A DNA stretch of 64,000 bases from Paracoccus indicus. GTDB taxonomy: Bacteria; Pseudomonadota; Alphaproteobacteria; Rhodobacterales; Rhodobacteraceae. This document shows positions 15,765 to 18,488 of this stretch, piece after piece; position 1 is the stretch's first letter; each line of letters starts with the position of its first letter. The notes under the pieces are model-generated. The model had not been told where the DNA came from and made no database searches. It saw only the letters and a program-made list of their open reading frames with translations. The stretch spans positions 62,001 through 126,000 of the forward strand of contig NZ_PYWA01000002.1 of assembly GCF_003056335.1 (NCBI RefSeq), written 5' to 3'. A program made the translations under genes and the position numbers.

Positions 15765-17462
15765 TCAGCGGGCGATGATCTCGAATTTCGTGACATCGAC
15801 CATGCCGCGATCGGTGATCTTCAGGGCGGGGATCACCGGCAGGGCCAGGAAAGCCAGTTGCAGGAAGGGTTCCTCCAGCGTCACGTCCAAACTGCGGGCG
15901 GCGTCGCGCAGGATGACCAGGCGGTCGCGGACATCCTCGAAGCTTTCGAGGCTCATGAGACCCGCGACGGGCAGGGGCAGCTCGGCGATGATCTGCCCGT
16001 CCAGCGCGACGACGAAGCCGCCCTCGATTTCGGACAGGCGGTTGGCGGCCAGCGCCATGTCGGCGTAATCGGCCCCGACCACGGCGATATTGTGGTGGTC
16101 GTGGCAGACGGTCGAAGCGATGGCCCCCCGCGCGATGCCGAAGCCCTTGACGAAGCCCGTGGCGATATTGCCGTTCCTGCCGTGCCGCTCGATCACCGCG
16201 ATCCGCATCAGGTCGCGCGACGGGTCGGGGCGCTTGTCGCCGTCCTGCGGATCGATGTCGATCGTCAGATGCTCGGTGATGATCTTGCCTTCGAGGATGC
16301 CGATCACCGGCGTTTCCGTGCGGTTGCCGGTATAGCGGAAATCCTGCGCGGTGACTTGGGGGGCCTTGACCGAATGCCGCGCGACGGGGGCGACATGGCC
16401 GCGCGCGGCGAAGGCGGCATCATCGACGACGCGGCCTGCTGTCAGGACCAGTTGTGCGTTGCATCTCTCAAGGCTGTCGATGGCGACGATATCGGCGCGC
16501 AGGCCCGGCGCGATCAGGCCGCGATCCTTCAGACCGAAGGCCTCGGCGGCGGAGAGGCTGGCGGCACGATAGGCGGCCAGCGGTTCGGTCCCCAGTGAAA
16601 TCAGGCGGCGGATCATGTAGTCCAGATGCCCGTGTTCGCCGATATCCAGCGGATTGCGGTCATCGGTGCACAGGCACAGATAGGCGCTGGTGGCAGGCGT
16701 CAGGATGGGTTGCAGGGCGTCCAGATCCTTGCTGACCGAGCCTTCGCGGATCAGAACGCGCATGCCCTTGCGCAGTTTTTCCAGCGCTTCGTCGGCGGTG
16801 GTGGCCTCATGCTCGGTGCGGATGCCCGCGGCGATATAGGCGTTCAGGTCGCGCCCCGACAGCTGCGGGCAGTGGCCGTCGATATGGCCGCCCTCGAACA
16901 GGCGCAGCTTGTCCATCGCCGCCGGATCGCGGTGGATGACGCCGGGGTAATTCATGAACTCGGCCAGACCGATGGCCGAGGGGTGGCCCATGACGCGGGC
17001 GATGTCATCCGCCAGGATCTCGGCGCCCGAGGTCTCCATGTCGGTCGAGGGCACGCAGGAGGACAGCTGAACCCGCAGGTCCATCAGCAGATGTTCGGAT
17101 GCCGCCTGGAAATAGCGGATGCCGTCCAGACCGATGACATTGGCGATCTCATGCGGGTCGCAGATGGCGGTGGTCACGCCGCGGGGCGTGACGCAGCGGT
17201 CGAACTCGAAAGGGGTCACGAGGCTGCTTTCGACGTGCAGATGCGTGTCGATGAAGCCCGGCACCAGCGTCAGGCCGGTGACGTCGATGATGCGTTCAGC
17301 CTCATAGCTGGCGCCGATGCCCACGATCCGGTCGCCGCAGATCGCCACATCGCCGCCGATCATCGCCCCCGTCACAAGGTCGAAGACCTGACCGCCGCGC
17401 AGGACCAGATCGGCCGGCATGTCGCCGCGCGCCTGTGCTATCCGCCGTTCCAACTGGTCCAT
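15765..17462 (-). CDS. ade: Adenine deaminase
   Basis: This is a metal-dependent amidohydrolase that converts adenine to hypoxanthine for purine salvage. The 565-residue protein has the amidohydrolase metal motif [11 protein letters not shown] near residue 80, the segment [12 protein letters not shown], the repeated metal-site region [14 protein letters not shown], and the adenine-deaminase-specific [10 protein letters not shown] near residue 470. The start at ATG 17462 gives the usual [14 protein letters not shown]-terminus; longer frames add low-complexity sequence. Confidence 0.93.
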
Positions 17463-17582
17463 TCTGCCGCTCCGATCATTTTTGGTGCGCCACATGACAG
17501 CAAAGCGGGGGGGAGGTCCAGAGGTGCTTGCCCTTGGGCGGGGCGCATGCTTGCCTGCGACCATCAAGCAGGAAGGTTACCC

Positions 17583-18488
17583 ATGTCGAACGCCAGCGCC
17601 CAGAGCTATGCCCATGACGACCGCAACGATCAGGTTCTGGTCCATGTGAACGGCCAGCTTGTGCCGCGCGATCAGGCAAGCGTGTCGATCTTCGATGCGG
17701 GCTTCGGTCTGGGCGACGGGGTGTGGGAAGGGCTGCGGCTGGTGCGCGGGCGCATCCTGTCGCTGGATGCGCATCTGGACCGCCTGTACGAGGGCGCGCA
17801 TTCCATCAGCCTCGATATCGGGATGGATCGTGCGGCGCTGACCGGCTGCATCATGGATCTGCTGGCGGCCAATGGGATGCAGGATGGCGCCCATATCCGC
17901 CTGATGGTGACGCGCGGGGTCAAGACGACGATCAACCAGGACCCGCGTTTCACGGTCGGCGGGGCGACGGTGGTGATCCTGGCTGAATACAAGCAACCCA
18001 ACGCGGCGTTGAAGGCGCGAGGGCTGCGGTTGATGACCTCGGCCATCCGCTGTTCGACGCCGGATGTGTTTGATCTGCGCCTGAATTCGCACAGCCGGTT
18101 GAATTTCATCCAGGCGCTGAACCAAGTGATCGGCATGGGTGCGGATGAGGCACTGATGCTGGACGATCGCGGCTTTGTCGCCAGCTGCAATTCGACCAAC
18201 TTCTTCATCGCGCGGGGGGATGAGCTTTGGACCTCGGACGGGGCATGCTGTTTCAAAGGAATCACACGGGCGACCGTGATGCGATTGTGGCAGCAGGCGG
18301 GCGGCGTGCTGCACGAGGGGAACTTCACGCTGGCGCAGGCCTATGGCGCGGATGAGGCTTTTGTCACAGGGACGCTGGGGGGCATCACGCCGGTGGCCAG
18401 CATCGACGGGCGCGCCATGCGCGGGGGCGTCGGCGGGCCGGTGACGGCGCGGGTCGCGGCGCTTTACGCGGATTACGTCAACGGCTGA
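17583..18488 (+). CDS. Aminotransferase class IV-like protein
   Basis: This 301-residue protein has the fold of PLP enzymes of class IV (branched-chain and D-amino acid aminotransferases, aminodeoxychorismate lyase). Signs are SIFDAGFGLGDGVWEGLRLV near residue 35, GADEALMLDDRGFVASCNST near 186, and FKGITRATVMRL near 224. The Schiff-base lysine, expected 20-22 residues before Glu189, is not visible: the stretch 164-182 reads DLRLNSHSRLNFIQALNQV and has no lysine at all. A relative with a shifted lysine, or a non-catalytic protein, are both possible. ATG 17583 is preceded by a GGAAGG ribosome site. Confidence 0.85.
   Translation: MSNASAQSYAHDDRNDQVLVHVNGQLVPRDQASVSIFDAGFGLGDGVWEGLRLVRGRILSLDAHLDRLYEGAHSISLDIGMDRAALTGCIMDLLAANGMQDGAHIRLMVTRGVKTTINQDPRFTVGGATVVILAEYKQPNAALKARGLRLMTSAIRCSTPDVFDLRLNSHSRLNFIQALNQVIGMGADEALMLDDRGFVASCNSTNFFIARGDELWTSDGACCFKGITRATVMRLWQQAGGVLHEGNFTLAQAYGADEAFVTGTLGGITPVASIDGRAMRGGVGGPVTARVAALYADYVNG

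Follow-up and report, generated by a model that had tools for sequence, protein, structure and literature searches.

A protein family of the class IV aminotransferase fold with asparagine at the Schiff-base lysine position in Paracoccus indicus, and its co-occurrence with Sulfotransfer_5 genes

The window analysed here, that is the whole stretch of 64,000 nucleotides, contains on its forward strand a gene for a protein of 301 amino acids, referred to as P0001. The open reading frame is genuine: it begins with ATG at position 17583, ends with a stop codon at 18486-18488 and is preceded by a Shine-Dalgarno-like sequence. Its neighbours are an adenine deaminase gene (PF13382) and a hisH-like open reading frame, the latter named from a reading of the frame. 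The adenine deaminase gene (15768-17567) is divergent from the P0001 gene, and the same layout occurs in the loci L005-L008.

P0001 matches the Pfam family Aminotran_4 (PF01063) across the entire domain with 148.1 bits against a cut-off of 28.5 and is a full-length member of this class IV (fold type IV) aminotransferase-fold superfamily. It also hit 21 NCBIfam models, mostly branched-chain or D-amino acid transaminases and aminodeoxychorismate lyases, and reached the cut-off of none of the 21 (top score 217.6 versus 363).

Relatives were collected with a scan of contigs, which gave 80 loci (the best 80 of 88 relatives), and from the loci of additional genomes. The resulting alignment comprises 162 distinct sequences, namely 146 lysine-less proteins including P0001 and 16 canonical class IV relatives. 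The canonical set consists of two paralogues from the same genome (L001 and L002) and 14 proteins that we picked among the best-scoring other matches. Duplicates from the P0001 genome (L003, L086), identical sequences and pieces shorter than 200 residues were omitted. A fourth class IV protein of this genome (L004, G000:C12:56268-56858) is encoded about 5 kb before the start of the window in an open frame of just 222 residues; it fell below the search threshold and is not part of the canonical set. The features of the P0001 gene, all on the plus strand, are as follows.

17570-17576, plus strand: AGGAAGG, Shine-Dalgarno-like, 6 bases 5' of the P0001 ATG, read from the sequence.
17583-18488, plus strand: P0001 gene, class IV aminotransferase-fold protein without the Schiff-base lysine, 301 amino acids (open reading frame; PF01063 E 4.5e-43; 7z79 E 5.4e-125).
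17736-17738, plus strand: Arg52 codon (WEGLR), presumed phosphate-site arginine; Arg in 146/146 of the family and 10/16 canonical sequences.
17892-17894, plus strand: His104 codon, substrate-carboxylate tyrosine position; His in 146/146, canonical Tyr in 13 and Met in 3 of 16.
17922-17924, plus strand: Lys114 codon, in the loop past the TRG motif, sole family-wide lysine with a putative role; Lys in 144 and Arg in 2 of 146.
18084-18086, plus strand: Asn168 codon, Schiff-base lysine position; Asn in 146/146 of the family, Lys in 16/16 canonical sequences.
18090-18092, plus strand: His170 codon, motif NSHS[R/K]LN, candidate general acid/base; His in 146/146 of the family and 0/16 canonical sequences.
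18183-18185, plus strand: Ser201 codon, position of the PLP ring-nitrogen glutamate; Ser in 52 and Thr in 94 of 146, Glu in 16/16 canonical sequences.
18264-18266, plus strand: Thr228 codon (GIT motif), presumed phosphate-cup threonine; Thr in 146/146 and 16/16.
18366-18368, plus strand: Thr262 codon (TGT motif), presumed phosphate-cup threonine; Thr in 145/146 (one gap) and 16/16 canonical sequences.

An earlier note on this DNA had described a class IV aminotransferase with Asn168 in place of the Schiff-base lysine, and the alignment bears this out, with lysine at the position in all canonical sequences and asparagine throughout the family. The lysines of P0001 are, as a complete list, residues 114, 137, 144 and 225; hence the stretch between Lys144 and Lys225 is free of lysine, as had been stated, and Arg172 is present. 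The alignment check proposed at the time places none of the four on the catalytic position in the sequence alignment, and Lys114 lies elsewhere. Compared with the branched-chain aminotransferase 5cm0, Asn168 aligns in a gap-free region with the residue that we take to be the catalytic lysine, and Ser201 falls on what is presumably the ring glutamate. The note had located the lysine by counting from a conserved glutamate. The position so obtained was correct; the glutamate itself, Glu189 (GADEAL), is not the one at the PLP ring, which sits 33 residues past the lysine position and corresponds to Ser201 in P0001. That the protein might belong to a subgroup that cannot be aligned can be discarded, since the alignment is clear and crystallographers chose the same residue for mutation in a homologue (7z79, N174K).

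PMC9309667, which numbers the fold as class III, describes the lysine as absolutely conserved among catalytically active aminotransferases and assigns to an acidic residue the maintenance of the protonated ring nitrogen of PLP. P0001 has Asn168 and Ser201, respectively, at these two positions. Position 172 was considered as a substitute for the lysine and rejected: it is Lys in 94/146 but Arg in 52/146 sequences, P0001 among the latter, and therefore cannot provide an obligatory Schiff base. According to that source, Tyr96 and Arg98 of E. coli IlvE hold the substrate; by our reading, they correspond to His104 and Arg106 of P0001.

The phosphate cup is retained. Arg52, Gly226, Thr228, Thr262 and Gly263, which we take from class IV structures to be phosphate-cup positions, are kept in 145 or 146 of the 146 sequences. 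The family furthermore has invariant residues of its own, namely Trp48, Gln119, Glu135, His170, Ser171 (146/146) and Asn203, and Lys114 is almost invariant.

The predicted model of P0001 has a mean pLDDT of 88.8, with the lowest values at residues 1-10 (59) and 161-170 (70). Compared with the PDB, the 50 entries listed gave Z-scores of 31.5-40.5 and are class IV enzymes by title. The best match was 7z79 (Z 40.5, rmsd 1.4, 296 residues aligned), and all others listed had Z-scores of 31.5-35.4. The same entry was found by sequence (E 5e-125) together with 9j32 (E 3e-124); the former reads LRLNSHS and the latter LRLKSHS. Entry 7z79, released in 2022, carries the title 'Crystal structure of aminotransferase-like protein from Variovorax paradoxus', and 9j32, released in 2025, is its 'mutant N174K'. 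As the wild-type structure has the asparagine and the second entry reintroduces a lysine at this very position, the loss of the lysine had already been recognised by others. Based on sequence, fold, the asparagine and the tree, P0001 belongs to the 7z79 family of lysine-less aminotransferase-like proteins.

A quick tree, some of whose canonical branches are long, separates the lysine-less sequences from all others at a branch with SH-aLRT support of 99. The family is also set apart by its scores: in 61 genomes its members scored 459-507 bits and all other class IV proteins at most 165, and in 299 genomes the values were 449-507 and at most 212 bits, respectively. Among the best 80 of 88 relatives, the nearest to P0001 are from Paracoccus sp. 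JM45 (94%) and P. sediminilitoris (92%). Comparison with six Paracoccus orthologues gave dN/dS ratios of 0.07, 0.08, 0.17, 0.16, 0.22 and 0.20, which indicates that the gene is constrained by purifying selection. Since the trait is common to 146/146 distinct relatives, Asn168 is not a product of chance, and sequencing error, decay or a recent point mutation are excluded by these relatives and by the asparagine in the solved homologue 7z79.

In many relatives, the gene that follows the lysine-less gene encodes a protein of the family Sulfotransfer_5 (PF19798; 268 and 234 bits in two examples). Across 357 sampled genomes, both genes were present in 59, the lysine-less gene only in 4, PF19798 only in none and neither in 294. 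PF19798 thus occurs in 59/63 genomes with the lysine-less gene and in 0/294 without it (Fisher 3e-63, shared ancestry being ignored). The 61 genomes of the family to which the P0001 organism belongs, its own counted, contained the lysine-less gene in 40 and PF19798 in 39 cases (39 had both, 1 the lysine-less gene alone, 0 the sulfotransferase alone and 21 neither). Among the 299 genomes of the phylum, for which up to 7 or 9 candidates were scored per genome, 25 had the lysine-less gene and 22 had PF19798, all 22 lying within the 25. Two genes from the P0001 window served as controls in the 61 genomes and showed no association: the BCCT transporter was present in 27/40 genomes with the lysine-less gene versus 16/21 without it, and adenine deaminase in 37/40 versus 19/21.

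Forty-two of the 59 pairs are adjacent and on the same strand. The match to the sulfotransferase lies 5-226 bp downstream in 40 of them and upstream in 2 (measured from profile match to profile match). The remaining 17 pairs, including that of the P0001 genome, are far apart or on separate contigs; these are mostly draft assemblies, and a few may be splits at contig ends. In view of these 17 cases, physical linkage is not enough to account for the co-occurrence. The P0001 genome carries its PF19798 gene on a contig other than that of P0001 (match G000:C3:65997-66638, 224 bits), and neither Sulfotransfer_5 nor an ABC transporter operon adjoins the P0001 gene. The Sulfotransfer_5 gene of this genome (L085:1429-2436) lies between ybgC-like and tolQ-like open reading frames with a ruvB-like frame beyond, as named from a reading of the frames. 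A possible gene fusion in L049 (840-aa frame) was rejected, as the stretch before the sulfotransferase is unlike the lysine-less protein, which sits in another frame.

The link is weaker in the named genomes near P0001. Among the best 80 of 88 loci, a sulfotransferase was found around 31 with tblastn at 1e-5, three of these being cut by a contig end, and around 30 at 1e-15; in total, 59/80 of these genomes contain one. The 49 named genomes of this set that have no adjacent sulfotransferase divide into 28 that carry one elsewhere and 21 that carry none. Three of those 28 sulfotransferases (L180, L190, L207) adjoin a further lysine-less copy. No Sulfotransfer_5 gene was found in the eight genomes of this set that are labelled as betaproteobacterial (L035, L037-L043).

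The partner protein was modelled with a pLDDT of 94.5. Its best fold matches are the sulfotransferase domains of curacin and olefin synthase and tyrosylprotein sulfotransferases; Foldseek E-values were 8e-07 and weaker, with TM-scores of 0.4-0.5 and an rmsd mostly of at least 8. A phmmer search of the PDB sequences with the partner yielded nothing significant (best E 0.034). In the partner alignment, Arg10 (loop SGPRN) and Ser113 (motif RxPxxVxxS) are invariant in 28/28 sequences. According to PMC11625862, such enzymes are defined by a lysine or arginine in the loop that binds PAPS together with a serine in the 3'-phosphate helix, and PF19798 is tabulated there without a function. Judged by its model and these residues, the partner looks like a working PAPS sulfotransferase with an intact PAPS-binding signature.

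A second genomic context was found in one sub-branch. Among the best 80 of 88 loci, an amino-acid ABC transporter operon is near 21 and the sulfotransferase near 30, and both together are near none. In L023, the operon includes the families SBP_bac_3, BPD_transp_1 and ABC_tran. In loci of the range L015-L043 (e.g. L023:2115-9509), a GntR/FCD regulator, a solute-binding protein, permeases and an ATPase lie upstream of the lysine-less gene, and 17/21 transporter-linked loci are accompanied by a GntR-type regulator of one cluster. The operon stands beside the lysine-less gene in 13 of the 21 named genomes without a sulfotransferase, and 8/21 transporter-linked genomes carry a sulfotransferase elsewhere. 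Of the four genomes among the 357 that have the lysine-less gene alone, G014, G280 and G305 carry transporter genes next to it, and G338 has neither neighbour in the fetched DNA. When the tree is rooted at its midpoint, the deepest split within the family has sulfotransferase neighbours on either side, in 9 and 60 rows. Of the transporter-linked rows, 22/23 fall on one side, which also holds the Paracoccus clade of P0001. Further neighbours are rarer: pyrroline-5-carboxylate reductase and a ClC channel were found in just 6 and 11 of 208 loci (L116 and L179 being one place). The alphaproteobacterial loci L060-L066 show the order short-chain-dehydrogenase-like frame (by reading), flavin-reductase-like gene, lysine-less gene and sulfotransferase. 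The flavin-reductase-like neighbour in L061 matches Pfam Flavin_Reduct, and it is possible that these extra genes encode additional steps of a pathway.

Since the lysine and the ring glutamate, which drive the transaminase cycle, are both gone, such a cycle is unlikely in this family. The interpretation that we favour, with moderate confidence, is that P0001 and its relatives are non-transaminase proteins that bind a phosphate ligand, probably non-covalent PLP or PMP, handle an amino-acid-like anion and act in a pathway with the sulfotransferase, the reaction itself being a prediction. According to this interpretation, the proteins would constitute a distinct functional family of fold type IV that has abandoned transaminase chemistry. 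PLP or PMP, or possibly another phosphorylated ligand, would be held non-covalently and the internal aldimine would never form. Ser/Thr201 could donate a hydrogen bond to a neutral ring nitrogen, Arg106, His104, Lys114 and Gln119 may grip the anionic amino-acid-like substrate, and His170 might act as acid or base. The lysine-less protein and the sulfotransferase would then belong to one pathway or complex in which an amino-acid-like compound is sulfonated, while in one branch the substrate may instead be imported through the amino-acid transporter. The suggestion of the earlier note that the protein binds PLP for another job, or uses PLP independently of a lysine, agrees with this and appears favoured, at the level of sequence, by the conserved phosphate cup in combination with the loss of lysine and ring glutamate.

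Several other explanations have to be weighed against a non-covalent PLP or PMP ligand. It is somewhat improbable that the phosphate cup was repurposed for another phosphorylated metabolite as substrate instead of vitamin B6, which would make the family PLP-independent enzymes or binding proteins. Such a change would fit the replacement of Lys and Glu, the residues specific to the aldehyde and the ring of PLP, alongside retained phosphate contacts, but Ser/Thr stands at the ring-nitrogen position in 146/146 sequences, as in enzymes that hold a neutral pyridine; fold type II enzymes use Ser/Thr in this manner. We also regard as unlikely a catalytically dead partner, in which the fold persists solely for structure or regulation, as a subunit of the sulfotransferase or of the transporter system, and no cofactor takes part in chemistry. 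That lysine and ring glutamate are both lost and that the gene co-occurs strongly with the sulfotransferase is in line with this, and the same genomic pattern would be expected if the protein were purely a scaffold or a regulatory subunit. Nevertheless, the phosphate cup is retained, and the segments that once formed the active site have gained polar residues that are identical in all 146 sequences, which a scaffold would hardly need. Moreover, 21 of the 49 named genomes discussed above (best 80 of 88) retain the lysine-less protein without any sulfotransferase.

Two explanations would restore the lysine. In class IV enzymes, the loop after TRG lines the neighbouring active site, and Lys114, the sole family-conserved lysine (144/146), lies in this loop; it could thus form the Schiff base in trans from the neighbouring subunit. 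We consider this relocation very unlikely, as the position is Arg in two relatives (L119, L142) and the ring glutamate is gone as well. That P0001 is an ordinary transaminase, misread in sequencing or recently altered by a point mutation, has virtually no probability, being refuted by the asparagine in 146/146 relatives and by the solved homologue.

Within the favoured interpretation of a non-covalently bound ligand, it may be speculated, although we hold this particular version to be quite improbable, that the two proteins form a two-enzyme system: the fold-IV protein would bind the amino-acid-like substrate in a non-covalent adduct with PLP or PMP that forms without an enzyme lysine, and Sulfotransfer_5 would add the sulfuryl group from PAPS. 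If this were true, it would represent a vitamin-B6 enzyme of fold type IV that naturally works although it lacks the Schiff-base lysine, and also a new way of making a sulfonated metabolite.

In the open-licence PMC literature, we found no paper on 7z79, 9j32, the lysine-less family or a link to Sulfotransfer_5. As far as this search reaches, the family is known from structure without a published function. The loss of the lysine is itself no novelty; the pairing with PF19798 is, as far as known, the new lead and the first concrete one towards a function, as it points to a partner protein, to PAPS as the cofactor and to a class of metabolites. This pairing, the loss of the ring glutamate and the structures 7z79 and 9j32 were absent from the earlier note. 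Labels like 'Aminotransferase, class 4' (PDB) are thus given to proteins that do not have the residue such enzymes need.

Among known systems, 7z79 of Variovorax paradoxus is closest to P0001, with 64% identity, asparagine in place of the lysine and the motif NSHSRLN; it differs in that it stems from another organism. The P0001 genome contains Sulfotransfer_5, in contrast to the eight genomes with betaproteobacterial labels mentioned above, in which none was found. The branched-chain aminotransferases (5cm0/5e25 of Geoglobus acetivorans, E. coli IlvE) share the fold, the domain order and the phosphate-cup residues, and the substrate arginine R98 of IlvE corresponds in our reading to Arg106. 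In contrast to them, the P0001 family has Asn, Ser/Thr and His in place of Lys, ring Glu and Tyr96, and identity is at most 36%. The E177S mutant of D-amino acid transaminase (1g2w) resembles P0001 in fold (Z 32.0) and in the serine at the ring-glutamate position, which there is a laboratory mutation; D-amino acid transaminase retains its lysine, unlike P0001. Sulfotransfer_5 proteins differ from P0001 in fold and are different proteins, and they are relevant here as the proposed partner. A comparable combination is said to exist in plants, where branched-chain-amino-acid aminotransferase-like proteins (Arabidopsis At5g27410, At3g05190) fuse a sulfotransferase-like domain with a class IV domain.
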